Origin: Gammaproteobacteria bacterium
GTDB lineage: Bacteria; Pseudomonadota; Gammaproteobacteria; Steroidobacterales; GCA-2729495
NCBI GenBank assembly: GCA_021773815.1
Contig: JAJFJS010000133.1
Span: 1-55,097, forward strand
Length of the DNA: 55,097 bases
Direction of reading: 5' to 3'
Positions 21,158-40,834 of the stretch are shown one piece after another. Below the pieces are notes generated by a model. That model saw only the letters and a program-made list of their open reading frames with translations. It did not search any database and was not told where the DNA came from. Position 1 is the stretch's first letter; the number at the start of each line of letters is the position of its first letter. Position numbers and translations under genes: made by a program.

Positions 21158-22552
21158 TCAAGAACCTGAGCGTTTGTTTCGATCGTATAAACCTGACGAG
21201 GAAATATATTGAAATAACAGTCGCATAGGTGGATGCAGCACGTAGCCGAGAAGCTCCCAAACGCCGGCACCGGTGAGAACCAGTGCATTTCTAACCGCAT
21301 AAACCAATAACGGACCAACACACACAAGGAGTGCCGTCGCAACTCCGATTAATTCATACTGATGACACAGAACATACATGAGCGGTAGCATGGCGACCGT
21401 GAAGATCAGGGCGATCTTGGCAAGATATATGTGTCTGTTGGTTGCCGACGCAGGTTGGAAGGCCGCCCGCCAGATCGCCTCGCCGACGGCACCGGTCAGC
21501 AGCAGGATGAATAGCAAAGGATCGAACTGCAGCCTACCGCCTGTCCACGAGGGGAATAGAAACCAGGCCGCAATGCCGATGGCAATGGCTGCCGCCAACG
21601 AAATCCAAAACAGGATCTGGATGATCTGCAGAGATAACCTTCTGTATGAAGCCATATCGTTGGCGCCATAAGCCAAGCCGAGTTCCACATTCATTGATTT
21701 TCCGAAAATATTGGTCTGGGTAACAAATCCGGCCAGTTGACGATGGGTGGCGAACAGGGCCACCGCTGCGGGACCGAGCACAGAGCCGATTATCAGGCGC
21801 GTGCCCTGAAAATTGAGGGCGTTGCTGGCTGGGAACGATAAGGCGGCGAAGGCCGGTTTGGCAAGTTTGCGGACGATTTCAAAGCGAAAGGACGACAGAC
21901 CGAATTGAAACCAGGGCGCCAAACGTCCGATCATGATGCGTAAAACCACCATGCCAGCCACAGCAGCGGCAAGCATGGCGCCCGCCGCCATGACCGGACC
22001 GCCGTCGGTCGCGACGATGCTGGCGAACAACAGGAATTCGCCGACAAACACGCCGCTCAACCACATGAAAAACAATGGGTAGTGCCCCGTCGCCTGCAGC
22101 GCCCCTCCCATCATTCCGCTTTGCATGGATATAATGATCTTTATCCCCAAAAGGGCGGCAATAATAACAAGGTCGTCCGAACCGATCCGGCTGATACTGA
22201 AGGTCGCGGCGACCGGCAAGAGCGAGATCAGAAGAAAGAACGCCAAAGCGATTACGCCGGAGGTCACACCGACGAGAATCGAGGATGACTGAAAGGTGGC
22301 GAGAGCGCCTTCCTGATCACCATCCGCGACCTGCATGACCATCTGGCGGGCAGTCACATGGGTGAAGCCGAAATCACTGATGGCAAGAAAGGCCGGCAGC
22401 GCCGTGATAAGCAGCCACTCACCATAGAGAGCGACACCCCAGAAATACAGAAGCAGCGGCACAGCAGCAAACTGGATGACCATCTGCGAAAGCTGAAAGA
22501 CGCCATCGGCGGCAACGCCCTTGAACAACCTTTTATTCCGCTCGGTCATCAT
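21158..22552 (-). CDS. Polysaccharide repeat-unit flippase, Wzx-like
   Basis: A 464-residue protein with about twelve to fourteen hydrophobic segments and a short basic N-terminus (MMTERNKRLFKGVAADG). The opening, with ALYGEWLLITALPAFLAISDFG, matches the MATE/PST flippase superfamily. It should move the undecaprenyl-linked oligosaccharide across the inner membrane for polymerisation. An open frame at 21112-21342 overlaps its 3' end and is not real. It sits just after the pyruvyltransferase gene and before the FkbM gene. Confidence 0.88.
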   Translation of the reverse strand: MMTERNKRLFKGVAADGVFQLSQMVIQFAAVPLLLYFWGVALYGEWLLITALPAFLAISDFGFTHVTARQMVMQVADGDQEGALATFQSSSILVGVTSGVIALAFFLLISLLPVAATFSISRIGSDDLVIIAALLGIKIIISMQSGMMGGALQATGHYPLFFMWLSGVFVGEFLLFASIVATDGGPVMAAGAMLAAAVAGMVVLRIMIGRLAPWFQFGLSSFRFEIVRKLAKPAFAALSFPASNALNFQGTRLIIGSVLGPAAVALFATHRQLAGFVTQTNIFGKSMNVELGLAYGANDMASYRRLSLQIIQILFWISLAAAIAIGIAAWFLFPSWTGGRLQFDPLLFILLLTGAVGEAIWRAAFQPASATNRHIYLAKIALIFTVAMLPLMYVLCHQYELIGVATALLVCVGPLLVYAVRNALVLTGAGVWELLGYVLHPPMRLLFQYISSSGLYDRNKRSGS

Positions 22553-24037: not shown

Positions 24038-24436
24038 TCATTTTTTCACAGCACCAGCTGAGCGATCGTTGCGCATCAAATAATGAACGGCCAAGTTTCT
24101 CGAACCGATCATTGCAAACCACGTTATCAAAATGCCAGAGAGGCTCGCCACAAGGTCGATCAGGCTGGCTGTACGCCCAGGTACCATAAGTTGCATCGCT
24201 TCGAGCCAAGTTGCAAAAAGAGAGCAACTAAGAGGAGCCCATAGCGATTGCTTAGTTGCCGACGCTGCGAAGATTGAGAGTAAGGCAAAGATGCCGAAGT
24301 GCAGGAGCAGATCGTTGTAACCGTATATCCATTTGTGGTTGGGAAAGCTGCCCCGATGAATAATGGCATAGTAAAAGGCCAGTGCAGCGATAGCGATTGT
24401 AGCTGCTCCATAGAGTGTGCGTATCCAAGGCAACAT
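24038..24436 (-). CDS. VanZ-like membrane protein
   Basis: A 132-residue protein with about four hydrophobic segments. The VanZ pattern is visible: YNDLLLHFGIFALLSI, then EAMQLMVPGRTASLIDLVASLSGI. The conserved E, Q, P-R and D residues are all there. The family's biochemical role is not settled; small VanZ proteins are frequent next to sugar-phosphate transferase genes in exopolysaccharide clusters, as here. It is downstream of the initiating transferase on the same strand but separated by about 290 bases, so it may have its own promoter. Confidence 0.8.
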   Translation of the reverse strand: MLPWIRTLYGAATIAIAALAFYYAIIHRGSFPNHKWIYGYNDLLLHFGIFALLSIFAASATKQSLWAPLSCSLFATWLEAMQLMVPGRTASLIDLVASLSGILITWFAMIGSRNLAVHYLMRNDRSAGAVKK

Positions 24437-24728: not shown

Positions 24729-26333
24729 TTAGGCCCACAAACGGCTGGGTCCTGGTTGGTGTTGAGCCAGTGCCGGGTTTTGGCGCTGAAGAAACGCAAT
24801 GTTGTTTGTTCTAAGAACACCTGAACGACCGAGATCCTGCCAAGCACTGCTGATGGTGTTGCTGCAGGTCGTTTCGCCAAAGATCACCATTGGGATGGTG
24901 CGCAGTACGATTTTCAAATCCAACGACAGACTTGCATTCTGTACATACCAAACGTCGAGAGCCGCCTTATCTTCGGCCGAGACCTCTCGGCCGCCGACAA
25001 CTTGTGCCCATCCTGTGAGCCCAGGGCGAACGAACAGGCGTGCGCGATGCGCTTTTGATTGGTCGCGCGGGAGTAGAGGGCGAGGACCAATGAAGGACAT
25101 ATCGCCTTTTAGGATGTTGAAGAGCTGGGGCAGCTCATCGAGGCGTGTTTTCCGCAAGAAGTTTCCGAACCGGGATGTGCGTGCTTCATCGGACCGACGA
25201 TAGCCCTCGGGGGAACGCGCTGGGCTCATGCTACGCAACTTTAATAATCGGAATGGGCGTCCGCCGAGGCCCGGCCGCTGCTGCCAAAACGCAACGGGGA
25301 GTCCAATATTTATAGCAACAGCTATGCCGACAAGTGCGATTATGGGGGCAAGACCGATAATCAGAAATGACGCGGCGACAACGTCGATGTAGCGTTTTAT
25401 CCGCCAATATTTTCGACGGGCAATCGCATTGAGGTCCTTGGCTGGAATTTCAAAGCTAACCTGAGAATCTGATTGCGACTTTTTCGCCGCTATTGCAGAA
25501 GAGGGCTTTTGAGGTCCGTCGATAAAGCCGAGTTGCTCTGACAAAAATTGCAACTCAATTGAGCCTGCCTGTTCCATATTCAAGAGTGCTGATTGTGCGT
25601 TGGCATTCAACGACTCAAAGGCTGTTGTGACGACGATCTTATCAATCATCACGCCATGCACTTCGAGGTCCGCAACGATTTGATCGATCTGTTCTGAAAG
25701 CCCGAGCACTTTGTATTGGCCAACGAGGCGACCCACGTGACGATCGCGTTGGCCGACAAGGCCTGCCACCTTGATCCGGCCCTTTGCAAGTTCATCAATG
25801 GACTGAAGGTAAGTCTCTGTAAGGCGACTAAGGCCGACAACCAAAACTGTTTTTGAATTTGGCTCGTCGACAACGGTAAGAGGCGCAATTGCTGGAAGGC
25901 GGCGTTCGCGAGCAACATGGCGAAGGCGTAAAATGACACGTGAGCCCACCATCAGGCTTGCAGCCACAAAAAATTGCAAAATCGGCAGTGAGCGCGCGAC
26001 CCCATCGAGCCGGTTCGTCGCAAACGTAAGAAGAACAGTTAGGAGAACAATGGCGGCCACGACCCAGACAATTCGCACATAGTCAGGCATCGAACTGAAC
26101 CGCCAAAACGTTTGGCTCAATCCAGAAAGGGGCACAATGATTATCGAAGCAGAAAGTGTTGCGACGAAGTACGGCGAAACCTCGACTAAGCGAGCCCACG
26201 AAAATGCAAAATTATCCCGCAAAAGCAACGCACAACACGTCGCGACGAGTATAATTAAAAGATCAATCTGTAAACTTATAAATCTACGCAACACAAAATC
26301 TTTCGGCACGCCGAAAGCCCCCGCTAAATTCAA
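24729..26333 (-). CDS. Polyprenyl-phosphate sugar-1-phosphate transferase (initiating transferase)
   Basis: A 534-residue two-part protein. The N-terminal half has about four membrane segments and a CoA-binding-like soluble domain (TVLVVGLSRLTETYLQSI). The C-terminal half is the bacterial sugar transferase domain: KRYIDVVAASFLIIGLAPII, QQRPGLGGRPFRLLKLRSM, RKTRLDELPQLFNILKGDMS, FIGPRPLLPRD and GLTGWAQVVGGR. It starts repeat-unit synthesis by placing a sugar phosphate on undecaprenyl phosphate. Glucose or galactose is the usual substrate, but the sequence does not decide. The leftward operon 28465-24729 also holds a Wzy-like gene and a small exported protein. Confidence 0.93.
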   Translation of the reverse strand: MNLAGAFGVPKDFVLRRFISLQIDLLIILVATCCALLLRDNFAFSWARLVEVSPYFVATLSASIIIVPLSGLSQTFWRFSSMPDYVRIVWVVAAIVLLTVLLTFATNRLDGVARSLPILQFFVAASLMVGSRVILRLRHVARERRLPAIAPLTVVDEPNSKTVLVVGLSRLTETYLQSIDELAKGRIKVAGLVGQRDRHVGRLVGQYKVLGLSEQIDQIVADLEVHGVMIDKIVVTTAFESLNANAQSALLNMEQAGSIELQFLSEQLGFIDGPQKPSSAIAAKKSQSDSQVSFEIPAKDLNAIARRKYWRIKRYIDVVAASFLIIGLAPIIALVGIAVAINIGLPVAFWQQRPGLGGRPFRLLKLRSMSPARSPEGYRRSDEARTSRFGNFLRKTRLDELPQLFNILKGDMSFIGPRPLLPRDQSKAHRARLFVRPGLTGWAQVVGGREVSAEDKAALDVWYVQNASLSLDLKIVLRTIPMVIFGETTCSNTISSAWQDLGRSGVLRTNNIAFLQRQNPALAQHQPGPSRLWA

Positions 26334-26509: not shown

Positions 26510-28060
26510 TTAGGTGTCTTTGTCGCGGTGCTTATTTGTTGGTTTGCTCGTCCATGACTCCGGCCATTCGATATCGGTCCGCCATTGTTCACGCTTGACT
26601 GGCTCCGTGGCCGGAATAACCTCTTTCGGCTCAAGTCGGGTTGTTTGTCGGCCCTGTGTGCTCGGGACTTGCCGCGGCGCAGGCATAGACAAAGGTGGCG
26701 GAACCAGTAGGGCGCAACAAAAAGAAAATATTGTAGCCAGAGCCGTCGTGCGAAGGGGGTAATCTACAAACGAATGCGCGAGCAAAAGCGCAATCGCAAT
26801 GGTGGCTGCACGTCGAAGCAATACGTTGTCGTAGTTACTTTCTGGCGCGCTTTTGAACCAAGCGGCAAATGTTCGGGCGGCCACCCAAAAAACAAATGCC
26901 GCGATCAGGACTATTCCGAAGGCGCCGGTTTCAAGCACAAGTTCGGCAAAGTCGTTGTGAGCACGGTTGGCGTAGCCACGAAATAGGTCGCCGCTTTTTT
27001 CGTAAGCCGCATAAACTGGAACAAAGGAACCTATACCGGTGCCAAAAGGCAATGCGGCGAGGCCGGATTCCAATGTTGTCGAACTTAAAGGAATGCGCAG
27101 ATCCTCAAGTGGATCACGATCAAACCGCGTGAGAATTCGCGTTAAACCGAACTGCGCGGCGAATACTACGGCAAAGCCAAGAGCTGTAAGCCATATGCGG
27201 CCTGCCATTGATTGTTGTGCCGTTTTGGTGGCGGTTAATTTCGTTTGATTGAGAACGGCGATTAACAAAACTCCGACGATTGCCACCATGGCAAGGAAGA
27301 CGCCCGCGCGAGATCGTGCCATCGCCAGTCCCGCTACGATTGCAATCACAAAAGCGAGCGCCGCGGCGAACTGAAGGATTGCTCTCGAATTGACCGCTCC
27401 GGGTTGAAGAAATCCCCTCGTAGAAGTGGCGAACCAAGCCGCCGAAAAAACGAGTGTTATATAGAGTTGCGCTGCGAAATGGTTTCTGTTGGCGAAGAAG
27501 CCAACGGCCTCGCTGCGATTGGTGAATTCGTAAAACCGAAGTGCGCTTTCAGGACCCTGCGCAATTTGCAGAAATGCCAGCAAGAGGGCAATCCCGCCCA
27601 AAGCCAGAACAATGCGAAATAGAGTTAGTCGCGCGTGGCTGTTGAGTAGCGCAGTGCCCATAAATATTGCAATTGGTGCAATCAAGGATGACGCCGAAGC
27701 CCAAGTTTCATGAGGCGTCAATGAAAGTCGCGCCCATTCACCTCGATGCTCAATTAAAGCCAATCCAGAGGTGGCCAAAAGGTGGGGGGGCGTGTCTGGT
27801 TGGAGCGCGAGAGGAAGCAGGATCAGCTGAATTGCAAATGCGACGATCCCTGCCAATAACACTAGGCAAATTAGGAGTGGTGGACGTCCTGCGGGCTTAG
27901 GCGCTTCGAGCCATGCCCAAGCACTCACTAATAATAATGGGATCGCGAGCAGCTGAACTACAACGTCACCCGCGAACCCCGTTCGAGTTGCCCCACCGAA
28001 AAAAACGGATGTCGATAATACCAAAACCGAGAGAACCAACACCGTCCGATAGGGTTGCAA
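26510..28060 (-). CDS. O-antigen ligase/polymerase family protein
   Basis: A 516-residue protein with about eleven hydrophobic segments and a large periplasmic loop near the middle. The loop contains TNRSEAVGFFANRNHFAAQL early and GTGIGSFVPVYAAYEKSG with YANRAHNDFAELVLETGAFG later. The NRNHFA and AHNDF(A)E patterns are those of the Wzy_C/O-antigen ligase superfamily in exopolysaccharide loci. A hydrophilic tail of about 60 residues ends in Lys/Asp-rich sequence. It could polymerise the main polymer, making the protein at 17689-18960 specific to another unit, or the reverse. It follows the small exported protein gene by 12 bases. Confidence 0.88.
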   Translation of the reverse strand: MQPYRTVLVLSVLVLSTSVFFGGATRTGFAGDVVVQLLAIPLLLVSAWAWLEAPKPAGRPPLLICLVLLAGIVAFAIQLILLPLALQPDTPPHLLATSGLALIEHRGEWARLSLTPHETWASASSLIAPIAIFMGTALLNSHARLTLFRIVLALGGIALLLAFLQIAQGPESALRFYEFTNRSEAVGFFANRNHFAAQLYITLVFSAAWFATSTRGFLQPGAVNSRAILQFAAALAFVIAIVAGLAMARSRAGVFLAMVAIVGVLLIAVLNQTKLTATKTAQQSMAGRIWLTALGFAVVFAAQFGLTRILTRFDRDPLEDLRIPLSSTTLESGLAALPFGTGIGSFVPVYAAYEKSGDLFRGYANRAHNDFAELVLETGAFGIVLIAAFVFWVAARTFAAWFKSAPESNYDNVLLRRAATIAIALLLAHSFVDYPLRTTALATIFSFCCALLVPPPLSMPAPRQVPSTQGRQTTRLEPKEVIPATEPVKREQWRTDIEWPESWTSKPTNKHRDKDT

Positions 28061-28072
28061 GCCAGCTGACTC

Positions 28073-28465
28073 CTATGGGCTTGCTGGGGCTGGAGGAGGA
28101 TCGTCATCGTCATTTGCGACAGCAATAATGATCCCAACGCCGCCGGCGACGGCAAGGCCACCAAGGATTAACGGCGTATTGTCTGCCCCAGCTCCTGGTT
28201 CGCACGGAGGATCAGTTGGAATAGTAACGGTTTGGTTTGCGGCAATTCTTCCAACGCAGCCATTATCAAATTGAACGAGTGCCTGGCCTTCGCCGCGTAC
28301 GGTAACTCTGTCCCCGGGGGCAACATTTGTGGCGCCTGTCACCGTTCGGAAGCCAGATACCTTGTTGACGCGCACGTTACCTTCTATGCCATTCAAGAGA
28401 GCAGCATTTGCAGCCGTGCCAGGCGCCATTACGCAGATAATTAGTACAAAGATAAATTTACGCAC
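28073..28465 (-). CDS. Small exported protein A, C-x17-C domain with C-terminal anchor
   Basis: A 130-residue protein. Residues 1-21 form a signal peptide (MRKFIFVLIICVMAPGTAANA). A beta-rich domain follows (GNVRVNKVSGF, APGDRVTVRGEGQALVQFDNGC), weakly like the FecR/iron-dicitrate sensor fold. Two cysteines are 18 positions apart, in FDNGCVGRI and DPPC. A hydrophobic segment (LILGGLAVAGGVGIIIAVA) comes near the end, and the tail is NDDDDPPPAPASP. The protein at 34870-35355 has the same plan. It heads the leftward Wzy/initiating-transferase operon, so a role in envelope assembly of the polymer is plausible. I do not recognise an established family. Confidence 0.75.
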   Translation of the reverse strand: MRKFIFVLIICVMAPGTAANAALLNGIEGNVRVNKVSGFRTVTGATNVAPGDRVTVRGEGQALVQFDNGCVGRIAANQTVTIPTDPPCEPGAGADNTPLILGGLAVAGGVGIIIAVANDDDDPPPAPASP

Positions 28466-28804
28466 AACAAAAACTCCACAACTTCACCCAAACAACAAAC
28501 AATCGCCAGGGCTTGTCCCCACACGCAGGATAAATACTTAACACACAACGTATCCCGTCTGATGATCAGTAAATATATTGCGCCGCACGATTGCAAGCCT
28601 TATAACTTATAAAGAGATTAATTTCAGGATCTATGTGCTGTAGGGGCACCACAGAACGAATGTCTGCCACAGACGCTGTACAGCCCCAAGAGGGGCCGGT
28701 ATTGGTTGGCTGTAATGGAAGCTAGTCAGCAGGTAAATCATAATTAGAGCGCAATTGTTCATATCATCTAATTTTAGTTTGTTGCGTGAAGATATCGGGG
28801 CGGA
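28466..28804. promoter_or_regulatory. Divergent control region of the two assembly operons
   Basis: The leftward exported-protein/Wzy operon and the rightward phosphatase/Wza/Wzc operon start from this 339-base gap. It contains GCCCC-AAGA-GGGGC at 28683-28696 and a nearby GTGCTGTAGGGGCACCAC dyad, possible regulator sites. The CpsB-type start at 28805 is preceded by GGGGCGGA. Promoter boxes cannot be assigned firmly. Confidence 0.45.
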
Positions 28805-29650
28805 ATGTTAGATCTTCATAATCACCTTTTGCCTGGTGTTGATGACGGAGCACACGATGTTGCCGTGTCTCTGGATATGGCGCGCGCCTATGTCGACCAA
28901 GGTGTTCGATGTGTGGCGTGCACGCCGCATATTATTGAAGGGCTGTATCATAATACTGGGCCTGAGATCCGAAATGCTGTCTGCGACCTGCAGGCCAGAA
29001 TTGACGATGCCGGCATAGACCTTCTTTTGGTTCCCGGCGCTGAAAATCATGTCGTGCAGGACTTTGTAAAGCGCTTGCGTGATGACCGTCTTGTGCCGCT
29101 CGGAACGTCCAAATTCGTTCTTGTTGAGCCGCCGGAACACATCGCACCTATCTATTTGGAGCAACTTTTTTTCGATGTTCTCGTCGCTGGTTTCGTGCCG
29201 ATACTCGTGCACCCAGAACGACTGCGGTGGATCGAGAAAAAATACCATGTTGTCCAACGCCTCGCTGCTCGTGGTGTTTGGCTGCAAGTCACGTCGGGCT
29301 CGCTGCACGGTAGATTTGGAAGCAGGGCGCAGTATTGGGCTGAGCGGATGTTGGAAGAGGGTCTTGTCCATATATTGGCTAGCGATGCCCACAACATGAA
29401 AAAGCGGCCGCCAGACTTATGGAAAGGGCATGCTGCTGCTGAAGCATTGGTTGGGGTACAGGAAGCACATGATCTTGTTGTGACGAGACCCGCAGGTATT
29501 TTGATGAACAAAATGCCAAATGAAATGCCGGCACCTCAAGGTGCACCGTTAGTTTATGAGTTACGGGGAAACAATGACTTATCTGAGATGCATAGTGCTA
29601 CTGCTGGCGGCAGCATTGGTCAGCGCTTGCGGCGTGTCTTCGGTAACTGA
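28805..29650 (+). CDS. CpsB/YwqE-type tyrosine-protein phosphatase (PHP family)
   Basis: A 281-residue metal-dependent phosphatase of the PHP superfamily. The opening MLDLHNHLLPGVDDG (H5, H7) with CTPHIIEG (H42), VPGAENHV, ILVHPERLRW and ILASDAHN supplies the expected metal ligands. CpsB-type enzymes dephosphorylate the tyrosine tail of the Wzc/CpsD kinase, resetting the assembly cycle. The gene heads the rightward operon with the kinase two genes downstream, fitting that partnership. The last 77 bases overlap the start of the Wza gene. Confidence 0.9.
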   Translation: MLDLHNHLLPGVDDGAHDVAVSLDMARAYVDQGVRCVACTPHIIEGLYHNTGPEIRNAVCDLQARIDDAGIDLLLVPGAENHVVQDFVKRLRDDRLVPLGTSKFVLVEPPEHIAPIYLEQLFFDVLVAGFVPILVHPERLRWIEKKYHVVQRLAARGVWLQVTSGSLHGRFGSRAQYWAERMLEEGLVHILASDAHNMKKRPPDLWKGHAAAEALVGVQEAHDLVVTRPAGILMNKMPNEMPAPQGAPLVYELRGNNDLSEMHSATAGGSIGQRLRRVFGN

Positions 29651-30356
29651 CGTCTCGCTTGATTCACCACGCCTTGGGCATGGTGGAGAAGGCGAAGTGG
29701 TTACGGGAGCTAATTCGCTTGCTGCCAAGTCTTCCGATGTTGCTAAATCGCCGGACGTTGGAAAATCCGTGGCCGCGCTGACGTCAGTCGCGAATCCGGG
29801 CAGCAAAGCCTACAAAATCGGGCCGTTGGACGTGATTGAAATATCTGTCTTCAAGGTCCCGGAACTTTCCAAATCGGTGCAACTGTCAGAAGCTGGAACG
29901 ATGAATTATCCACTCGTTGGCGAGATCAACGTCGCGGGCAAAACGGCGCGAGAAGTTGAACAAAAACTAACGAAGACTTTGGGTGATAAATATCTGCAAA
30001 ATCCACAGGTGACTGTGTTCGTCAAGGAGCATAACAGTCAGCGCATAACGATCGAGGGGACGGTAAAAAAGCCTGGCGTGTATCCGATAAAGGGAGGGAT
30101 GTCATTGCTGCAGGCACTGGCTGTTGCGCAAGGGTTGGATACGTCTATTTCCGACGACACGCTCGTAGTGTTTCGGAAAGCTGAAGGCAAGCGTTCGGCG
30201 GCGCGTTTCAGCATGGCCGACTTACGAAGCGGCAAGGTGTCGGATCCTGAGTTGCAAGCCGGCGATGTCATCGTTGCAAACCCTTCAGCGGTGAAGCAGA
30301 GCTTTGACTTCATTCTCAAGGCTTTGCGACTGACCAGCGTGTTCGCAGTTATCTAG
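29574..30356 (+). CDS. wza: Wza-type polysaccharide export lipoprotein
   Basis: About 260 residues from the ATG at 29574, preceded by GGGGAAAC; the frame's earlier ATG at 29556 gives a poorer signal peptide. Signal and lipobox are LLLAAALVSACG, so the mature protein is an outer-membrane lipoprotein with Cys acylation. The export domain begins YKIGPLDVIEISVFKVPELS and runs to NPQVTVFVKEHNSQRITIEG, then an SLBB domain (VKKPGVYPIKGGMSLLQALA). It forms the outer-membrane channel for polymer. It overlaps the phosphatase gene and precedes the Wzc kinase by about 40 bases. Confidence 0.93.
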   Translation: MTYLRCIVLLLAAALVSACGVSSVTDVSLDSPRLGHGGEGEVVTGANSLAAKSSDVAKSPDVGKSVAALTSVANPGSKAYKIGPLDVIEISVFKVPELSKSVQLSEAGTMNYPLVGEINVAGKTAREVEQKLTKTLGDKYLQNPQVTVFVKEHNSQRITIEGTVKKPGVYPIKGGMSLLQALAVAQGLDTSISDDTLVVFRKAEGKRSAARFSMADLRSGKVSDPELQAGDVIVANPSAVKQSFDFILKALRLTSVFAVI

Positions 30357-30395
30357 GCGGAATGGCTTTAGCCTTAAGTTAAGTGAGTTGCTTGA

Positions 30396-32708
30396 ATGCA
30401 GGACGCGCGCGAAAATCGGGATCAACAACCGCCAGACGACCGCGGGCAGCTCGTTCCCGCTGGCAACAATGGGGCGGTCGCTCGGACCGACTACTATGCC
30501 ACGCGGGGATATCCGGACTATCCGGATGAAGGCGGCGATGAGCTTGCGGCAACGCTGCAACAATACATTCGTTTGGTTCTCAAACGGAAGTGGCTAATTC
30601 TGGGTGTCGCGTTGATGTGCCTGACATTGGGAGGTGTCGCCACGTTCATGCAAACGCCGATGTACACGGCGAAAGTTCGCATTCAAATTGATAAGGAAGC
30701 GCAAAAGGTTGTCGAGGGTGGTGGGACAAGCCCCGTGGAGGCCGGCGGTAGAGAGTTTTTGCGCACGCAATATGAGTTGCTGAAGAGCCGAGCTATCGCA
30801 GAGCGCATCGTCTCGGCGTTGCAGCTTGAAAACGACAAATCTTTCAATGAAGCGCGAAACGTCTCTGCAATTGGCGCAATCCGACAGTTGTTTGCTTCCA
30901 AGGCGGACCAGGACGCTGCGTCTGCCTCAGATTTACAAAACAATGCTGTAGGTGTAGTCGCCTACAACATGGGCATCCGTCCTGTACCAGGATCGCGGCT
31001 GGTCGATTTAACTTATGCTGATCCAAATCCGGCTCGTGCGCAACGTATCGCCAATGCGCACGCTGCCGCGTACGTCGCGTCCAACCTTGATAAAAGGTTT
31101 CAAGCGAATTCGTACGCAAAGACGTTTCTGGAGGACCAAGTTAAGCAGTTAAAGATTCGTCTTGCAGACTCCGAAAAGACATTGATCGAGTTTGCTGAGC
31201 GCGAACAAATCATTCAAGTCACAGAGAAGTCTTCAATTGCTGAGAACAATTTGGCTGCGGCGAACGCAGCTCTTGGGCAGCTCATTTCAGATAGGGTGAA
31301 AGCCGAACAGCTCTCGCTCCAAATTGAAGGTTCGGACGCGATTAACGTACCTCAGCTCTTGTCCAACAGAGTGATTGACGGTCTGCGTGTTAACCGAAAT
31401 GAGCTGACAAGAGAGTACGAGGAGAAGCTGGAAACTTTTAAGCCAAGTTATCCGGCCATGGTTCAGATCAAAAACAAAATGAATGAAATTAACCGCCAGC
31501 TTGCGTCTGAGGTCAAGACGATCAAAAGTTCGCTAAAAGCAAGCTATGACTCGGCGTTGGCTCAAGAGACTGAGATGAAGCAACGGATCGTTGAGCTTCG
31601 TGCACTGGTTCTCGATCTGCAGAAACGTGGCATCCAATATAATTCCTTGAAGGGCGAGGTCGAAACCAACCGGGGTCTGTATAACAGTCTCTTGCAGCGC
31701 TATAAGGAAGTGGATGTTGCAAGTGCTGTCGGAACCAACAATGTCTTTATCGTTGATAAAGCCACGAAGCCTTCATTCCCGTCCTCGCCTAGGATCGTTC
31801 GGGCGCTCCTTTTGTCATTAATGCTCGGTCTTGGCGCGGGGTTGGGACTGGCCTACCTTTTCGAAATTCTCGACGACAAGGTGCGCGCGCCCGAAGATGT
31901 GGAACAAATGTTCGGTTTGTCGACGCTTGGGATCATACCAGCATTGGAAACCAAAGAGCGCTTTTTGGAGGACTTCGCCGACCCTCGGTCTGCGGTGTCC
32001 GAGGCTTATCGGTCGCTTGCGACAGCGCTTCAGTTCTCGACGGAGTCTGGCTTGCCAAATTCAATTGCGATTACAAGCGCTGGGCCAGGAGAAGGGAAAT
32101 CAACAACATCAATCGCTATCGCGCGCCACTTTGCAACAATGGGTATGAAGGTGCTGTTGGTTGATGCGGATTTGCGCAAACCGTCACTTCACCAAAAGCT
32201 CGACCGAGACAATTCAACGGGCCTCAGCAACTATCTAACGGGCTCTGTTTCTCCTCCAGAGGTCATTCAAGCGACAGATCATGCAAACCTGGCGTTTATG
32301 GCGTCAGGCCCGTTGCCGCCAAATGCTGCTGACCTCCTCGGAGGAACACGTATGTTCTCTCTAATCTCGGTTGGACTAGAGGTCTTCGATCTTGTTGTTC
32401 TCGATGGACCGCCTCTACTCGGGCTTGCTGATGCACAATTGGTATCAAGCGCGGCCTCAGCAACCGTGTTTGTCGTGGGTGCAGGTGAGCAGAGAAAAGG
32501 TGCAATCAAAAATGCATTGATGCGCCTGCGGCAATCCAAAACAAATCTGGTTGGTGCTGTGTTGACCAAGTTTGACGCAAAAACTGCGGGCTATGGTTAT
32601 GGCTATGGATACGGTTATGGCGCTGAAGCATATACTTACGGCAGGTCGTCTGCGCCGCTGGAGCCTAGTGTACAGGAACCTCGGCTCGCAAGTCCCTCAG
32701 TGAGTTAA
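30396..32708 (+). CDS. wzc: Wzc-type polysaccharide co-polymerase and tyrosine autokinase
   Basis: A 770-residue inner-membrane protein with a Wzz-type N-terminal domain, two membrane segments (near residues 68-88 and 465-490) and a long periplasmic coiled coil between them with the GNVR-type segment near its end. The C-terminal BY-kinase has Walker A at 562-569 (AGPGEGKS), Walker A' VLLVDADLRKPS and Walker B DLVVLDGPP. The tail has a GYGYGYGYGYG run plus further tyrosines, the autophosphorylation cluster. It controls chain length with Wza and Wzy and is opposed by the phosphatase upstream. All motifs are intact. Confidence 0.95.
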   Translation: MQDARENRDQQPPDDRGQLVPAGNNGAVARTDYYATRGYPDYPDEGGDELAATLQQYIRLVLKRKWLILGVALMCLTLGGVATFMQTPMYTAKVRIQIDKEAQKVVEGGGTSPVEAGGREFLRTQYELLKSRAIAERIVSALQLENDKSFNEARNVSAIGAIRQLFASKADQDAASASDLQNNAVGVVAYNMGIRPVPGSRLVDLTYADPNPARAQRIANAHAAAYVASNLDKRFQANSYAKTFLEDQVKQLKIRLADSEKTLIEFAEREQIIQVTEKSSIAENNLAAANAALGQLISDRVKAEQLSLQIEGSDAINVPQLLSNRVIDGLRVNRNELTREYEEKLETFKPSYPAMVQIKNKMNEINRQLASEVKTIKSSLKASYDSALAQETEMKQRIVELRALVLDLQKRGIQYNSLKGEVETNRGLYNSLLQRYKEVDVASAVGTNNVFIVDKATKPSFPSSPRIVRALLLSLMLGLGAGLGLAYLFEILDDKVRAPEDVEQMFGLSTLGIIPALETKERFLEDFADPRSAVSEAYRSLATALQFSTESGLPNSIAITSAGPGEGKSTTSIAIARHFATMGMKVLLVDADLRKPSLHQKLDRDNSTGLSNYLTGSVSPPEVIQATDHANLAFMASGPLPPNAADLLGGTRMFSLISVGLEVFDLVVLDGPPLLGLADAQLVSSAASATVFVVGAGEQRKGAIKNALMRLRQSKTNLVGAVLTKFDAKTAGYGYGYGYGYGAEAYTYGRSSAPLEPSVQEPRLASPSVS

Positions 32709-32710
32709 CA

Positions 32711-33307
32711 ATGGAAAAGCCTTCGGCATTGCTCGCCGCATTGGCGATAACCCATACCCCCTTGAAGGTTCGAGCCCAGCACAATGCACCCCTGCCAGAT
32801 GGTGTTGTTCTTCTCTTGAAAGTTGCATCCGGCGACACCAACGCCATTTCACAGGCACAAGCTTTGACGGAGAGGACAGCGCCAGTTTTGCGTACAGCGG
32901 CAGGGTTTTTTATTGAGCAGATTTTGCTCAGTCAGGATTCCGACAGCTACAGAATCCTAGGTCTCAATTCTGATGCGTCTAGCAACGAATTGCGCAGTCA
33001 TATGGCGCTGCTCATGAAGTGGCTACACCCAGATGTTGCGGGGATGAATGCTGATGAGGGTGCGATTGATCGAACCATATTCATCAACCGAGTGACATCT
33101 GCCTGGGAGAACCTGAAGACCGCCGACCGCCGTAAGGCTTACGACAAAAAATTGGCGAGTGCCAAGCATCACGTCGGCTTAAACAAGAGGCAGCTGTCAA
33201 AAAGATCGAAGAGAAAACAACGACATGGCAAAAAACTTGAGATGCACCGTATCGAACGGGTCAGCTTGTTGCAGCGGTTTCTAAGACGTTTGAGGACGCA
33301 CACATGA
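32711..33307 (+). CDS. J-domain (DnaJ-like) protein in polysaccharide operon
   Basis: A 198-residue protein beginning two bases after the Wzc stop. The J-domain occupies about residues 79-150: SYRILGLNSDASSNELRSHM, then LMKWLHPDVAG with HPD at 106-108, then FINRVTSAWENLKTADRRKAYD. J-domains stimulate the ATPase of an Hsp70 partner. There is no zinc-finger or client-binding domain of classic DnaJ. The first ~75 residues are a helical segment of unknown role, and the tail is strongly basic (KRQLSKRSKRKQRHGKK), perhaps contacting membrane or nucleic acid. Tight coupling with Wzc suggests it helps assembly or turnover of the export machine; this is inference. Confidence 0.85.
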   Translation: MEKPSALLAALAITHTPLKVRAQHNAPLPDGVVLLLKVASGDTNAISQAQALTERTAPVLRTAAGFFIEQILLSQDSDSYRILGLNSDASSNELRSHMALLMKWLHPDVAGMNADEGAIDRTIFINRVTSAWENLKTADRRKAYDKKLASAKHHVGLNKRQLSKRSKRKQRHGKKLEMHRIERVSLLQRFLRRLRTHT

Positions 33308-34725
33308 TACGGCTTCGATCCTGGTGGCAGTCTTTTTTTAACGGCGTGCGCCTAACTATCGATACGCTTGCATCGCGGCCAAAGCGGGCTGCTTTTATGG
33401 GGATCGTGGGCGCTGGCTTGGTTTGGCTCGTTTTGTCTTCGACCCTACCCTATGTGCTTGCTCAGGATTCGCCTGAAGCGGCGTTGCGCCTAAGTACTGA
33501 ACACCCGGTAGCGCTCCTCAGTCGCGCAAAACAATTGCGAACCGAACTGCTAAGTCTGAGCGAAGAGAAAGAGCTTCTGGATCGCGAAGAATACACCAGT
33601 GCGGCAGAAAACAATGGGACCGCCGCAAAACACGCAGCACCGCGCCTGACAATGTCGGAAGCTGATGCAAAAAAAGCTGAGATTAGGGGCCAAATCCGAT
33701 CACTAGCAACGCGGGTCATCAAGAGCGATCCACTCAATGCCACAGCATTTCGCTTGTTGGCTGAGGTGACAGAGGACGCGTCGCGTGTGCGAGCTTTGAT
33801 GCAGGCCGCCGTTAAACGATCGCGACGCGAAACAATTGCTTTGTTCTGGCTTCTCAATGACAGTTATTACCGCAAGGATTGGGCATTGGTCTTGGAGTAC
33901 GCAGACATTTTGTTACGCACGAAAGTTCAGCTGGCGCCTTACGTTGTGAGCTATTTGGGCCAAATGGCCGAGGACCCAAATGGTCGAGCCCTTCTGCAAG
34001 AACAGCTCGCGACGTCGCCTAGTTGGCGGCGCGTGTTGTTTAACGAAATTCCACGACGCGTTAGCGATGTCAATACGCCTTTGATAATCATGATCGCATT
34101 AAAGGATGCTGGAAGCGCGCCAACGGACGAGGAGTTGCGACCATATCTTGATTTCTTGATTTCGAAAGAACGGGTCGATCTCGCTTACAATGCGTGGCTA
34201 CAACTTATGCCTGACGACGAATTGGAAACGCTTGGTCTTTTACAGAACGCAGGTTTCGATCATGAACCAACAGGCCTTCCGTTCGATTGGCGTATTTCGA
34301 GACCGCGCAATGCTGTGATCGGTTTTGAGCCATTGGAGGGAAGAACGGACGATCAGGCTTTGCACATTAGCTTTGGCGTTGGGCGCGTGCGCTTTCCAGA
34401 GACCAGCCAGACTCTAGCCCTTGCGCCTGGTGACTATCGGTTTAAAGGCCTGTTTCGAGGCAAGATCGACGCGAAACGCGGGCTGCGCTGGCAGATTCGC
34501 TGTGTTGGTCGCACACGCAATGTTTTGGCCGAGACAGAAATGCTAATCGGGCAATTCAAGGAATGGAAGGATTTCCGCTTTGAATTCAGTGTGCCGAATG
34601 ATGCGGGCTGTAAGGGGCAGGTCCTACGCCTTTTCCACGAATCACGTTCCGCTTCAGAGGAGCTTATCTCCGGCGATGTCTGGTTCAACAATCTGCAGTT
34701 AGAGAGGTCTAACACATTGAACTAG
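33304..34725 (+). CDS. Membrane-anchored protein with helical repeats and a beta-rich C-terminal domain
   Basis: A 473-residue protein whose ATG overlaps the J-domain gene stop by four bases. After a basic N-terminus, residues 32-54 form one hydrophobic segment (FMGIVGAGLVWLVLSSTLPYVLA). A coiled-coil and helical region with TPR-like spacing follows (SDPLNATAFRLLAEVTEDASR). The last ~150 residues look beta-rich (LHISFGVGRVRFPETSQTL, APGDYRFKGLFRGKIDAKRG), similar in style to carbohydrate-binding modules. It probably projects into the periplasm and may hold polymer or other export proteins. I do not recognise a named family. Confidence 0.75.
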   Translation: MIRLRSWWQSFFNGVRLTIDTLASRPKRAAFMGIVGAGLVWLVLSSTLPYVLAQDSPEAALRLSTEHPVALLSRAKQLRTELLSLSEEKELLDREEYTSAAENNGTAAKHAAPRLTMSEADAKKAEIRGQIRSLATRVIKSDPLNATAFRLLAEVTEDASRVRALMQAAVKRSRRETIALFWLLNDSYYRKDWALVLEYADILLRTKVQLAPYVVSYLGQMAEDPNGRALLQEQLATSPSWRRVLFNEIPRRVSDVNTPLIIMIALKDAGSAPTDEELRPYLDFLISKERVDLAYNAWLQLMPDDELETLGLLQNAGFDHEPTGLPFDWRISRPRNAVIGFEPLEGRTDDQALHISFGVGRVRFPETSQTLALAPGDYRFKGLFRGKIDAKRGLRWQIRCVGRTRNVLAETEMLIGQFKEWKDFRFEFSVPNDAGCKGQVLRLFHESRSASEELISGDVWFNNLQLERSNTLN

Positions 34726-34765
34726 AAGTTCTTTTAATAAAGTGTGGAACACAGAATTACATCGC

Positions 34766-34793
34766 TTGTCCCGATCGAGGTTATTTGTATACT
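34766..34793 (+). promoter_or_regulatory. Possible sigma-70-type promoter for small exported protein B
   Basis: TTGTCC (34766-34771) and TATACT (34788-34793) are separated by 16 bases, in the 144-base gap before the gene at 34870. The start codon is preceded by a strong GGGGGGG-rich ribosome-binding site. Separate expression from the upstream operon is therefore possible. Confidence 0.4.
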
Positions 34794-34869
34794 ACCTAAA
34801 TTCGTCATTCGGGTGCTGTATTGCAGCAGAGGGCCGGGTGGTACGCATTAAATTTGGGGGGGACAGCAG

Positions 34870-35355
34870 ATGCGCCTTGCTTCTGTAGCTTTTTTTGCTG
34901 GTTTTTTCGCAGTGTCGGCGGTGGCACAAGCGGCTTCGGTTTCAACACAAAGTGGACGTGTTTTTTTGAATTCTGGTGACGGCTTTACGCCGGTATCCGA
35001 CTCAACACCGGCGAAGCCTGGAGCTCAGGTGTTGGTGCGTGACGGCGGTTTCGCTGTAATCTCGTATGGCGCTTCTTGCAAAGTTCGCGTTGGTGTCGGT
35101 CGTATCTGGCAAATCGCGTCTAAGGCCCCCTGCACCAATGGATCAACCTTCATTGATATGGCTGCCTTGACGGGTCGCCAAGGCGCTGAAGGCGACGCTG
35201 TTCCGCCTCCTGCAGAGCAGGTTGTCGGGAACGCGCCTCCCGCCCCACCACCAATTTCACCTCTGCTCGTTGGTGGCCTTGTCGTCGGTGGTGTCGCAGG
35301 GATAGTGGTGGCAGTTACCAGCAATAATGATGATGATCCACCAGCAAGTCCCTAA
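34870..35355 (+). CDS. Small exported protein B, paralogue of protein A
   Basis: A 161-residue protein. Signal peptide MRLASVAFFAGFFAVSAVAQA, then a beta-rich domain (GRVFLNSGDGF, KPGAQVLVRDGGFAVISYGASC). Two cysteines are 18 positions apart (ASC...APC), exactly as in protein A. A proline-rich linker (APPAPPPISP) leads into a hydrophobic segment (LLVGGLVVGGVAGIVVAV) and the tail SNNDDDPPASP. Shared plan, spacing and tail show common descent with 28073-28465, though the linker is longer. It closes the rightward Wza/Wzc operon, so the two paralogues bracket the assembly genes. Function unknown. Confidence 0.75.
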   Translation: MRLASVAFFAGFFAVSAVAQAASVSTQSGRVFLNSGDGFTPVSDSTPAKPGAQVLVRDGGFAVISYGASCKVRVGVGRIWQIASKAPCTNGSTFIDMAALTGRQGAEGDAVPPPAEQVVGNAPPAPPPISPLLVGGLVVGGVAGIVVAVTSNNDDDPPASP

Positions 35356-35383: not shown

Positions 35384-36427
35384 CTATCGTTTCCGCCTCG
35401 TGATGGTCGGAGAAGATAGGCCTGTACCCGTCGTCGCCTTCGAGACAGACTGAGGTGCAATGTGGGTAGAAGTCCGTTCGCCCGGAAAGACGTACTCACT
35501 ATCACCTGATGCCTCCAATGCCGATTGGTAAAGTGCGGCAGCTTGAGGGCTTAACGGCACCCGATGCGCGTTTCTGTTTTTCGCCATGCCCCTCGGTGTC
35601 GTGAGCAATGGAGATAGCGGTTTGAGGTCGAGTTGACTCTTGCGCGCGGCCGTTATCTCCGTTCGCCTCTGACCTGTAAGAAGCGCGAGCTTTGTGATCA
35701 GCACTATCGCTGGCGACATGGCTGCGGTCCCACCGTCCATCGCCTTCCATAACTTGCGGATGTCAGTTTCACTTGCAACCACGTCTCGGGGTTGATTGTC
35801 GTGTCGATTGCGTAGCCCAGACGCTGGATTGAGTTGAACGAGCCCTCTGTCTATCCCAAAATTGAAGATGGAGCTGATGACCGCACGAGTAGTGTCTGCG
35901 CGTCGCGTGGAGCCACGATTAGTCATCCGATCCAAGACGCTGATTACGTCATCTCGGGTGACTGATTTTGCGGGCTGATCACCGACGAAGGGTAGGACGT
36001 CTTTGCGTAGAATGTGCTCGTAATCGCGCCGCGTGCTAGGCCGAAGCTGATCGCCTTTTTCAAATCGCGCCGCGGCAAGGCCCTTGAGGGTTAGAGCCTC
36101 CCGCGTTGCAGTTTTTGTGGCGACAGGATCTGCACCTTGTTGGACATGAGGTCGAAGACGTTCGACCTCGATAGTGGCCCGGGCCAGTGAAAGGTCGTCA
36201 AGACGTCCAAGCTTGAGCTTACGGCGCTTTCGCGTGGATCCAACTGCAACGTCGTAGTGGAAGTACCACGTTGCCGTTCCACTCGGCAGAACGTGCAACA
36301 CCAACCCGCGTGCGCCATTGAACCGGAATTCAGTTACAGAGGCTAGCTTGCCGGCACCTTTCACGATCTTCTGAATCGCTTTGGCGTTAGCGGGAAGTAA
36401 CCGGTCTTGATAGGTCGATTTCACCAT
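35384..36427 (-). pseudogene. Integrase of the DUF4102/P4 type, C-terminally truncated
   Basis: The 347-residue frame has the N-terminal arm-DNA-binding domain (EFRFNGARGLVLHVLPSGTA, KLKLGRLDDLSLARATIEV), the core-binding domain (RRDYEHILRKDVLPFVGDQP) and the first catalytic arginine (TGQRRTEI, about residue 254). After HIAPQSVSKA at about 330 the sequence becomes unrelated and stops. The HxxR motif and tyrosine nucleophile are therefore missing and it cannot recombine DNA. It lies beside a tRNA-Arg remnant, the usual target of such enzymes, so it is the decayed integrase of an integrated element. Confidence 0.8.
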
Positions 36428-36568
36428 GGTGGGCAGAGTAGAGCAGTTCTCCTATTTGGTCCATAATTGGCCCATAAAGATGTGAATTGCTGAATGTTCT
36501 TGAAACAGGTTGAAAGATAGATTCACATATAACAATATAATATTACAACAAAAAATGGTTTCAGGACG

Positions 36569-36871: not shown

Positions 36872-38221
36872 TTACCGACCCGCGATTGGCTTCTGCAATT
36901 CACGATCAGAGATCACGTTAACGACGTCGCCGGGCCGCAAAACGTCGGTTTGCGTAGCCTTCAATTTGACATGACCATCCGGACTTCGGCGAACAATCTC
37001 ATACAAAACAATTGGCACAGTTTTCTTTCCGACGACAAAACCTTGGGCGTTTATTAAGTCAGTTTCAGCTGATTCTAGTTGGAGTTTCAGACTGGCGATC
37101 GTTTCCTGCAGCTTGGCAATTTCCTTTTCGATTTCCAGCGATCTATTAAGCACACTAAGAGCCTTGTCTCGTCTGGCAGCGGCGAGAATTTGTTTGGCAC
37201 GTGCGATTGATGCCAGGACTTCGCGTGTCCGGCCCTCGTAATCCGTCGTTACACGCTCAAGAGAGACGATCTGTGATCGAGTCGTCAGGCCTTTGCGTTC
37301 CAAGTTCCGCAAACCGTCCCGCTCTAGTTTGCTTAGTCGCACCAGTTCCTGGAGTCTCTCATGTAGACTTGTAAAAGCAGCAATTTCATCGTCCGCAAGC
37401 ACGGCGACACGCTCCATACCTGAGATCTCGCGCCTATGTTTGGCAACACGTTGATCCATAACGCGCCGTTCGACCTCAATCAGGCCGCCTGCTTCCTCCT
37501 GTCCTGCAAGTTTGACCAATGCTGGCGGTAAACCCTTGAGTTCGACATTGTCTTTTTCGGCTACGAAGCGCGACAGCCGTGCCAATCTTCGCTTCAAAGA
37601 ATCGAGACTTTGCTGACGGCGAAGCGTGTAGCGCGACAATGCCTCTTTGGTGGGGCGCTCGCTTGCTAATGCTGGAGGCCGGTACAGGCCTCCTCCAAGC
37701 GCTATGGCGTGCAACACTGTCATGCCGTATTCGAACTGAAACGCACCAGGTTTTGTGACAAATCCAATTACGAATATGCGGCGGCGTGTTAGAACGTCGA
37801 TACGAATATGCGTCGCCCGGGTAGTATTCTTGGCGTAGGCGGTATTCAACTCCTGCTCGAAAATGTCTATTGTCTTACCTGCTACACGAAACATTCCAAG
37901 CAGCGGTATGGAGAGCTTCCCATCAGATCGAACAACATATTCTCCTGTCAGGTCAGTGCGATCATAGAAGCTAATCCGCAACCGATCACCCACATCAAGC
38001 TTTTCAAGACTTAAACCTCGATCATTGGCAGAGCGCTGGTCGGGTACGTCCGGCGGCCCGTCGTTCTGACTCGACTCGGCAGCTTGTGCAGTGTTGAGGA
38101 CGATATCGCTTCTATGTTGAGCGACCGCAGACTTAATTGAGAACAAGGTATGCGCGACGCATAAAGTTAGTCCCAAAGTTCCGATAGAACGGTAGCTCAT
38201 ATTAAATTTACAAAACCACAT
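36872..38221 (-). CDS. ExoF-like polysaccharide export protein
   Basis: A 449-residue protein. After an N-terminal signal-like segment it carries the Wza-type export domain (LEKLDVGDRLRISFYDRTDL, SDGKLSIPLLGMFRVAGKTI, RRRIFVIGFVTKPGAFQFEY). A long coiled coil of about 200 residues follows (RRLARLSRFVAEKD through EKEIAKLQETIASLKLQLES), then a C-terminal SLBB-like end (VLRPGDVVNVISDREL). The export domain plus coiled coil is the ExoF arrangement of rhizobial exopolysaccharide systems. It is downstream of the ExoP-like gene on the same strand; no glycosyltransferase is adjacent. Confidence 0.85.
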   Translation of the reverse strand: MWFCKFNMSYRSIGTLGLTLCVAHTLFSIKSAVAQHRSDIVLNTAQAAESSQNDGPPDVPDQRSANDRGLSLEKLDVGDRLRISFYDRTDLTGEYVVRSDGKLSIPLLGMFRVAGKTIDIFEQELNTAYAKNTTRATHIRIDVLTRRRIFVIGFVTKPGAFQFEYGMTVLHAIALGGGLYRPPALASERPTKEALSRYTLRRQQSLDSLKRRLARLSRFVAEKDNVELKGLPPALVKLAGQEEAGGLIEVERRVMDQRVAKHRREISGMERVAVLADDEIAAFTSLHERLQELVRLSKLERDGLRNLERKGLTTRSQIVSLERVTTDYEGRTREVLASIARAKQILAAARRDKALSVLNRSLEIEKEIAKLQETIASLKLQLESAETDLINAQGFVVGKKTVPIVLYEIVRRSPDGHVKLKATQTDVLRPGDVVNVISDRELQKPIAGR

Positions 38222-38248
38222 ACTTTGATCCAGATTAGTATAACGACA

Positions 38249-40489: not shown

Positions 40490-40834
40490 TCTCAGCTAAA
40501 CTTTGAAAGTGGCTAGCTCTTTTTTTATAGGACCAAATAAGTATCTAGATACTCTTCATTCTGGCATTCAAATATGTCGTCAATAATGTTCGTGCGCCCA
40601 AGCCAAGATCATTGATCCACCTCAAGACTTCAGGTGCGAATTTGTAACCGAACTGCGGCTCGGTTATCACCACTTAAGCAAAACTATGCCTAATTTCAGG
40701 TTGCGATTAAGCGTTGTAGGCAATTCACTGTTTTCACAAACAGGTGGGATGCTGCAGTTTATTCTTGGCACTGCTGGCAAGCGCTGCCGTGTCCGCAGCT
40801 GCGAGCTCAATGAGCTCGACATGACCGTTATGGG
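40490..40834. other. Gap between ExoP-like gene and IS3 remnant
   Basis: No gene is seen. AACCGA-ACTGCGGC-TCGGTT at 40646-40665 could fold but lacks a T-run on either strand. The part next to the ExoP-like start is AT-rich and should contain its promoter. Confidence 0.35.

Follow-up and report, generated by a model that had tools for sequence, protein, structure and literature searches.

A polysaccharide locus with two small exported proteins

The stretch of DNA considered here (the window; 55,097 nucleotides from a gammaproteobacterium) has two small genes set among others for polysaccharide assembly and export. One of them, encoding P0001 (28073..28465, reverse strand; 130 aa, GTG start, with a putative export signal), heads a leftward operon. 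Directly downstream is the gene for a Wzy_C-domain polymerase/ligase (26510..28060, reverse strand; Pfam PF04932, E 2.2e-10), with those for a polyprenyl-phosphate sugar-1-phosphate transferase (24729..26333, reverse strand; Pfam PF02397, E 5.5e-57) and a VanZ-like protein (24038..24436, reverse strand; above the cut-off of NCBIfam NF037970 and below that of Pfam PF04892) in the same orientation. Divergent from P0001 is a PHP-type tyrosine phosphatase gene (CpsB/CapC; 28805..29650, forward strand; Pfam PF19567, E 2.6e-47), part of a rightward run php-wza-wzc-dnaJ-tpr. The other products of this run, all from the forward strand, are a short OPX (Wza-type) export protein of 266 aa (29556..30356; Pfam PF02563, E 3.3e-24), a Wzc-type chain-length/tyrosine autokinase (30396..32708; Pfam PF02706 and NCBIfam TIGR01007), a J-domain protein that recurs in the module (32711..33307; Pfam PF00226, E 2.1e-8) and a module marker labelled ‘TPR’ by eye (33304..34725), itself with no Pfam match and with a relative that has a sub-threshold match to Pfam TPR_19. 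Downstream of the ‘TPR’ gene, P0002 (34870..35355, forward strand; 161 aa, ATG start, with a putative export signal) closes the operon. This placement, with P0001 just before the Wzy ORF and P0002 after the ‘TPR’ gene, agrees with that given in the initial annotation.

The two proteins are built to a common plan. Behind N termini that look by eye like signal peptides comes a retention-module-like beta domain (28193..28405, reverse strand, in P0001; 34930..35145, forward strand, in P0002), with predicted strands at residues 22-35, 38-42, 45-48, 53-65, 71-74 and 78-81 of P0001 coinciding with those at 22-34, 39-42, 46-48, 53-66, 70-74 and 79-81 of P0002. In each the domain holds Cys70 and Cys88, a Cys-x17-Cys arrangement with the cysteines exactly 18 positions apart. 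A Gly-rich hydrophobic segment, located by hydropathy with its boundaries taken from the sequence, lies at residues 97-117 of P0001 (28115..28177, reverse strand) and 130-151 of P0002 (35257..35322, forward strand), the best 19-residue Kyte-Doolittle means being 2.48 and 2.43 respectively. The proteins end in acidic, Pro-containing tails with Ser-Pro, delimited by sequence and family comparison: NDDDDPPPAPASP in P0001 (28076..28114, reverse strand) and NNDDDPPASP in P0002 (35323..35352, forward strand). Relationship of the ORFs at these coordinates, and the shared plan, had been proposed beforehand and both are borne out. BLASTP of one protein against the other gives E 5e-5, a likeness above chance, and a family profile from which both window rows are absent (nine rows from eight proteins, all from other genomes) recovers P0001 at E 4.5e-19 and P0002 at E 2.5e-14 and matches nothing else among the 385 window ORFs. 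Judged by sequence comparison, P0001 and P0002 are relatives.

An unnamed family and its conserved residues

On the same type of evidence, both belong to an unnamed and widespread family that is without a Pfam model. Its members occur in two proteobacterial groups, the window's class and the order of Aquabacter. The initial annotation pointed to alphaproteobacterial genomes for a profile search; the window genome itself is probably not from that class. The 54 that were aligned (alignment A6), out of 61 member ORFs, are 119-265 aa long (median 153), and no Pfam family matched more than one of them. The seven outside the alignment are L121 (start unclear, longer frame), L156 (a near-copy of L172), L157 (truncated), L166, L168, L184 and L187. 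As judged from titles and the openings of abstracts, the family is not described in the PMC papers listed for FecR or the retention module in combination with polysaccharide. Single-sequence searches of 98 close genomes with P0001 or P0002 gave no convincing relative, E being at least 0.005 among the matches listed; an own-genome match on contig C35 (E 0.021) was dropped, the 761-codon frame there lying opposite what is by eye a sensor-like gene. Kept out of the profile used for wider searching (A2) were L046, L047 and L050, which look FecR-type by eye and have no cysteine pair, and L051, which appears to be a reductase-like frame.

The expectation that both cysteines would be conserved is largely upheld: 44 of the 54 aligned members have the pair, eight have neither, and the two with a single one (L190 and L191) have another cysteine at 27. 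The proline before the second cysteine, PPC in P0001 and APC in P0002, was correctly noted for the window proteins and is not general across the family. A further feature is at the C terminus, where a serine is within the last three residues, mostly at the second or third position counted from the end, of 53/54 aligned members as against 43/246 background ORFs, and an S[PRQ] end is present in 42/54 as against 5/246; L166 and L187, from outside the alignment, are contrary to the pattern in having no serine there. In substrates of the PEP-CTERM/exosortase system, basic residues cluster behind a hydrophobic stretch at the C terminus. The family does not match them in this respect, with 33/54 tails being devoid of Lys and Arg and none having more than two such residues. 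The lack of Lys/Arg would not be expected behind a segment that halts in the inner membrane, and counts against the explanation of the family preferred below.

Relation to the adhesin retention domain and to FecR

As modelled, the beta domain of the window proteins has the fold of the LapA/MpAFP retention domain. The best solved match to both predicted structures, whose domain pLDDT is about 71-85, is the MpAFP N-terminal domain 5ix9, at Z 9.4 for P0001 (74 residues, 2.8 A; next row Z 6.2) and Z 8.2 for P0002 (74 residues, 3.2 A; next row Z 3.7), in keeping with the suggestion that structures of the two would superpose. At the sequence level the family profile meets 5ix9 at E 1.8e-4, and 18/54 members match NCBIfam retention_LapA (NF033682) at E <= 0.01, the best at 6.8e-7. 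Its curated cut-off of 50 bits is missed by P0001 (14.0 bits), and P0002 is not among the listed matches. The earlier statement that no described family has this plan accordingly stands for Pfam and fails for the fold. In LapA-type proteins the retention domain heads a giant type I secreted adhesin, whereas family members stand alone, have the domain ahead of a hydrophobic stretch, and are in polysaccharide loci; the matched stretch of 5ix9 has no cysteine whereas members usually have two. Because pLDDT is below 50 in the tail and hydrophobic part of both models, membrane insertion of members is argued from hydropathy alone.

FecR (Pfam PF04773) is also reached by the family profile, at E 1e-8 to 1e-3, and 8/10 of the FecR-domain controls scanned were Pfam FecR above its cut-off. 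In the reverse direction, Pfam FecR gave no match to P0001 or P0002 at E <= 1. Unlike the family, the controls have no cysteine in the matched stretch (20/20).

Small exported proteins of obscure role, e.g. GfcA, occur in such polysaccharide loci. GfcA and YjbE of Escherichia coli, from the operons gfcABCDE-etp-etk and yjbEFGH, resemble the family in this respect and, by eye, in having a signal peptide, a hydrophobic Gly/Ala/Val-rich stretch and a tail containing Asn/Asp. However, they are Thr-rich and, at 101 aa (GfcA) and 80 aa (YjbE), too short for the family's beta domain. YjbE matches its own Pfam family, PF11106, at 5e-33, whereas 0/54 members do so at E <= 0.01; GfcA has no Pfam match.

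Linkage to polysaccharide genes, and copy number

Co-occurrence with Wza, Wzc and Wzy genes, predicted from the window, extends well beyond it. One or more of the core genes wza, wzc, php, wzy, tpr and yjbH (E <= 1e-20) are near a member in 41/51 loci. The seed loci among these are not independent evidence, since their neighbours were known before profile A2 was built and some of the marker models were built from them, but linkage is also evident in the 33 loci without seeds (L159-L191), where it is 24/33. Near FecR-domain controls it is 0/20, and in random stretches of such genomes 0/20 at the same threshold, with 1/20 at 1e-4 (wzc model, 7.9e-7). In the stretch examined, 10/51 member loci have no core gene, and in nine of these ten no polysaccharide gene was recognised by eye.

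The arrangement recurs also. Directly downstream of 26/61 members, on the same strand, is wzy, and php is divergent from 12/61; the gene orders with wzy and with wzc-dnaJ-tpr recur in both sampled groups. The adjacent Wzy enzymes scanned have Wzy_C in 10/10 cases and PglL_A in 0/10, with a sub-threshold Wzy_C_2 match in one (L005). Of 297 genomes from Aquabacter's order, 24 have both a member and the ‘TPR’ protein, two a member only and eight ‘TPR’ only (Fisher 2e-26, a value that ignores relatedness, and obtained with a ‘TPR’ alignment whose rows are 7/10 from member genomes of that order, which favours detection there). The eight, out of 32 with ‘TPR’, are without a member at E <= 1e-8. The OPX proteins that match the window's short-OPX model at E < 1e-20, including that of L004 and one truncated by a contig end, all (26/26) end no more than 15 residues past the match, and by eye the short OPX proteins of member loci terminate in a hydrophobic helix-like stretch of their own. 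L111 and L112 have much longer OPX-like proteins that fall below the cut-off of that model, and in three loci a member directly precedes yjbH (YjbH barrel confirmed in 3/3, Pfam E 1e-136 or better). The linkage to VanZ is not seen beyond the window, which is the only one of the 51 loci to match a weak, single-sequence model whose silence is not evidence of absence.

The two window proteins had been thought of as matched subunits of one complex. That two-subunit model is not supported: 41/51 loci have a single member, bracketing pairs are found in 3/51 (the window, L175 and L179), and the window copies are not sisters in the family tree, though its deep branches are weak. The tree has several separate duplications, with P0002 grouping with L180 (support 89), and several pairs, e.g. 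in L163 and L174, are local duplicates.

Possible roles

The preferred explanation, with a probability of roughly 0.55, is that P0001 and P0002 serve a module of the Wzy/Wzc/OPX type for polysaccharide assembly and export, as accessory proteins anchored in the envelope; sequence, gene context and predicted structure together suggest this. The beta domain would be periplasmic and disulfide-bonded, the hydrophobic stretch would hold the protein in one of the envelope membranes, and its site of action would be the handover of the growing polymer between Wzy, Wzc and the OPX protein. By analogy with the holding of an adhesin by its retention domain, it may keep the polymer, or the machine, anchored in the envelope. 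A reading closer to assembly, namely that the domain is a structural subunit which has no polymer contact and attaches Wzy to the Wzc/OPX conduit or makes Wzy more stable, is possible though on the doubtful side. In its favour are the arrangements with wzy and with wzc-dnaJ-tpr that recur in both sampled groups, and the genome-level co-occurrence with ‘TPR’. Against it, a copy number of one to three per genome, with some members away from the module, is unusual for a fixed subunit, and no member is found at the chosen cut-off in eight ‘TPR’ genomes. The sequence likeness to FecR and the covariation of the cysteines raise the issue of a periplasmic sensor of envelope or redox state that controls polymer production. 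This is highly improbable given that no member of the 54 matches Pfam FecR at E <= 0.01, that no sigma/anti-sigma gene was noticed beside the window genes, and that only about 10-15 residues are behind the hydrophobic stretch in P0001 and P0002.

The conserved C-terminal serine and the adjacent Wzy_C enzymes bring to mind pilins with a C-terminal serine, and with them the unlikely prospect that the enzyme puts glycan or polymer on this residue and so makes the protein an anchor. According to a review (PMC12645811), TfpO uses a C-terminal serine, genes for the substrates of TfpO-type enzymes are often nearby, PglL in Acinetobacter prefers disordered, Ala-rich stretches in which the serine is flanked by Pro and Asp/Glu, and transfer of large polysaccharides is possible. 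Acceptor pilins of the TfpO type, according to that review, have in common with the family the conserved serine and a neighbouring gene whose product is a Wzy_C-family enzyme; members, however, are not pilins and their serine is usually not the final residue. Occurrence of members unlinked to the module in genomes that have it is compatible with their being substrates. Against such a role, the wzy model finds a single Wzy_C protein in the whole window, which would then be required as polymerase, a cleaved signal peptide together with an inner-membrane segment would put the tail in the cytoplasm and beyond reach, and L166 and L187 do not have the serine. A slightly less likely elaboration, again by analogy, is that of a stand-alone retention module that carries polymer, with the Wzy_C enzyme or a partner linking it to the serine and the disulfide-locked domain holding it. 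Improbable too, and somewhat more so, is a pore role in trans, in which the OPX protein is short and the passage through the outer membrane is provided, wholly or in part, by the Gly-rich helix of a member, whose acidic tail is outside. The short OPX proteins matching the window's model and the paucity of Lys/Arg in member tails favour it, as does an outer-membrane partner reported for short OPX proteins (PMC9601211). Yet the OPX proteins here have their own terminal hydrophobic stretch, L111 and L112 have the longer type, three loci have the YjbH barrel instead, and linkage is strongest to Wzy, an inner-membrane enzyme.

Implications

To our knowledge, the surface attachment of polysaccharides other than LPS is still poorly understood. 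The family can now be described by its profile and its fold, by two cysteines and a C-terminal serine as conserved residues, and by a recurrent place in Wzy/Wzc/OPX loci, and the question of its role is addressable through one small gene. Polysaccharide export and adhesin retention, both of them topics of biofilm research, would be connected by a single domain, and, were polymer indeed linked to the serine, a Wzy-dependent polymer would be fixed to the cell by way of a protein anchor.

The paired proteins and their surroundings

The initial annotation had pointed to two small exported proteins sharing a signal peptide, a short beta-rich domain, a spaced cysteine pair and a C-terminal membrane segment, and that description is borne out, with open reading frames encoding 130 aa (P0001; 28073-28465, minus strand) and 161 aa (P0002; 34870-35355, plus strand). 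Judged by sequence comparison the two are homologous: BLASTP aligns them at E 5e-5, and a nine-row profile from other genomes retrieves only P0001 (4.5e-19) and P0002 (2.5e-14) among the 385 window ORFs. A search at E ≤ 1 found no third copy in the window's genome.

The leftward gene order runs from P0001 through wzy, a sugar-1-phosphate transferase, a VanZ-like protein, a pyruvyl transferase and a likely flippase (21158-22552; our reading, without a Pfam match) to glycosyltransferases. Rightward are the php phosphatase, a short OPX (Wza-type outer-membrane polysaccharide export) protein, Wzc, a J-domain protein (32711-33307, +), a protein labelled 'TPR' by eye (33304-34725, +) and P0002. Right after P0002 is a phage-type integrase (35387-36451, minus strand) that looks cut short, its catalytic-domain match covering profile positions 5-116 of 172; at the locus edge, it may be left over from a mobile element. 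A second OPX/Wzc pair (Poly_export with Wzz/GNVR/AAA; 36875-40495, minus strand) adjoins the first pair and differs from it in type. A NusG-family protein (4014-4556, +; E 6.7e-18), encoded close to where the polysaccharide region begins, is perhaps its dedicated antiterminator.

Relatives in other genomes

Aquabacter spiritensis supplied the first true relative (L005, 8497-8952), which is located, like P0001, between wzy and php and has a cysteine spacing identical to that of the window proteins. As a query it gave matches at E ≤ 0.01 in 10 of the 274 genomes searched from the window's class, a count that takes in the window genome; some of these matches were FecR-like and were set aside. An 11-row domain profile, A2, with G9, G31, C50 and C68 invariant, was next run against genomes of the window's class (369), its phylum (398) and Aquabacter's order (297). 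From the class, 15 matches (ten of them A2's own rows, five new) stand at E 1.1e-13 or better, all reaching position 68, the second cysteine, or past it; in the next tier, 7.8e-9 and weaker, nearly all stop before that position, many in longer frames. Aquabacter's order has 43 matches at E ≤ 1e-8, one to three per genome in 26 of the 297 genomes, and some strong ones there (e.g. in genome G890) are without the cysteines.

Among 54 aligned members both cysteines are present in 44, neither in eight and a single one in two; the last two have a replacement cysteine at 27, as would be expected of a switched disulfide partner. In every one of the 54, the domain is followed by a hydrophobic stretch of 19 residues whose mean hydropathy is at least 1.2 (at least 1.6 in 48). 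A C-terminal Ser-Pro is found in 33 of the 54, and Ser-Pro, Ser-Arg or Ser-Gln in 42 vs 5 of 246 background ORFs; a serine within the last three residues is present in 53 vs 43 of 246. Clustering at 50% identity gives 39 clusters, 29 with the S[PRQ] end. Two members (L115, 9715-10539; L187, 9506-10312) have two tandem domain copies, each with a cysteine pair. Only broken frames, with a family-like fragment AYIVYENGC, fill the interval from wzy to wza in Rhodomicrobium udaipurense (L004, 4973-5274, minus strand); elsewhere in that genome L156 is an intact member and L157 a truncated one.

The window genome seems not to belong to the same class as Aquabacter, and despite this apparent difference the window and Rhodomicrobium OPX proteins are 50% identical in their best segment. 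A single-sequence search with the window proteins found no convincing member in 98 relatives of the window genome. Lateral transfer of the locus, with an integrase beside it, is possible.

Linkage to polysaccharide genes

Neighbourhoods were read for 61 members in 51 loci (one member in 41, two in ten), L158 being dropped as a second copy of L005. The markers were module-gene models, each built from one to five sequences and partly from seed loci. At least one core gene (wza, wzc, php, wzy, tpr or yjbH) is present at E ≤ 1e-20 within the stretch of 41 of the 51 loci: 16/16 in the set with seeds, 1/2 for Rhodomicrobium and 24/33 in the independent set (L159-L191). None was found in 20 control loci around weaker A2 matches in the window's class, where the matched stretch has a cysteine in 0/20 and Pfam FecR in eight of the ten scanned; 20 random stretches from member genomes of Aquabacter's order gave none at 1e-20 and, at E ≤ 1e-4, one weak match (7.9e-7).

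Arrangement recurs as well, with wzy immediately 3′ of the member and in the same orientation for 26 of the 61, php divergent from it for 12 of the 61, and yjbH (Pfam YjbH, E 1e-136 or better) right after it in three loci. Flanking of a php-wza-wzc run by members on both sides is confined to the window, L175 and L179 among the 51 loci. J-domain marker matches in 27 of the 51 loci make that protein a recurrent module part, and its presence in a polysaccharide operon is, to our knowledge, unusual; L114 (5279-7798) has its J domain fused to a response-regulator receiver domain. Neither Pfam nor NCBIfam has a family that matches the window 'TPR' protein at E ≤ 1, and the ten aligned 'TPR' sequences, conserved across two groups, share two invariant cysteines.

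Nine loci have no marker whatever, and polysaccharide genes were not recognised by eye beside them; a tenth without a core gene, L180, has a sugar-transferase match. Four unlinked members (L159, L161, L169, L171) have similar surroundings by eye, with a long frame of ~1600 aa with a common end and a hydrolase-like gene, which suggests an old second site in those genomes. Eight of the nine marker-free loci are in genomes with the 'TPR' gene, the exception being L184 in G1105. By genome, the 'TPR' protein, searched with a profile (A5) having seven of its ten rows from member genomes of Aquabacter's order, is carried by 32 of the 297 genomes of that order, 24 of them with a member, and in two genomes, G890 and G1105, a member is present but the 'TPR' protein is not (Fisher 2e-26, a statistic that ignores relatedness).

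Fold and proposed role

AlphaFold2 models built on three-row alignments have modest overall pLDDT (61.6 and 58.1), with about 71-85 in the domain. Foldseek with the P0002 model has as its top match 5ix9, the retention domain of the LapA-type giant adhesin MpAFP, at E 0.068, and a second structure comparison scores it at Z 9.4 with the P0001 model (next row 6.2) and Z 8.2 with that of P0002 (next row 3.7). Because a Z of 7-8 may be background, weight rests on the agreement of structure and sequence: a sequence profile reaches 5ix9 independently at E 1.8e-4, and the NCBIfam LapA retention module matches 18 of 54 members weakly. According to PMC13090378, such modules hold large adhesins at the outer membrane until cleavage releases them.

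An alternative, put forward as a hypothesis only, is that the proteins may be acceptors for the polymer, the conserved near-terminal serine beside a Wzy_C enzyme recalling TfpO acceptors, of which a C-terminal serine is used (PMC12645811); modification of E. coli GfcA by O-antigens is suggested by the authors of PMC8592465. However, the window has a single Wzy_C protein, and it is doubtful which side of the membrane the tail faces. We favour an anchoring or retaining role, which the small protein may have. Linkage and fold together support, at slightly better than even odds (roughly 0.55), an exported, envelope-held accessory protein of the Wzy/Wzc/OPX line. The family is real, widespread and unnamed; its setting in Wzy-type polysaccharide loci is ordinary, and the combination of parts is new.
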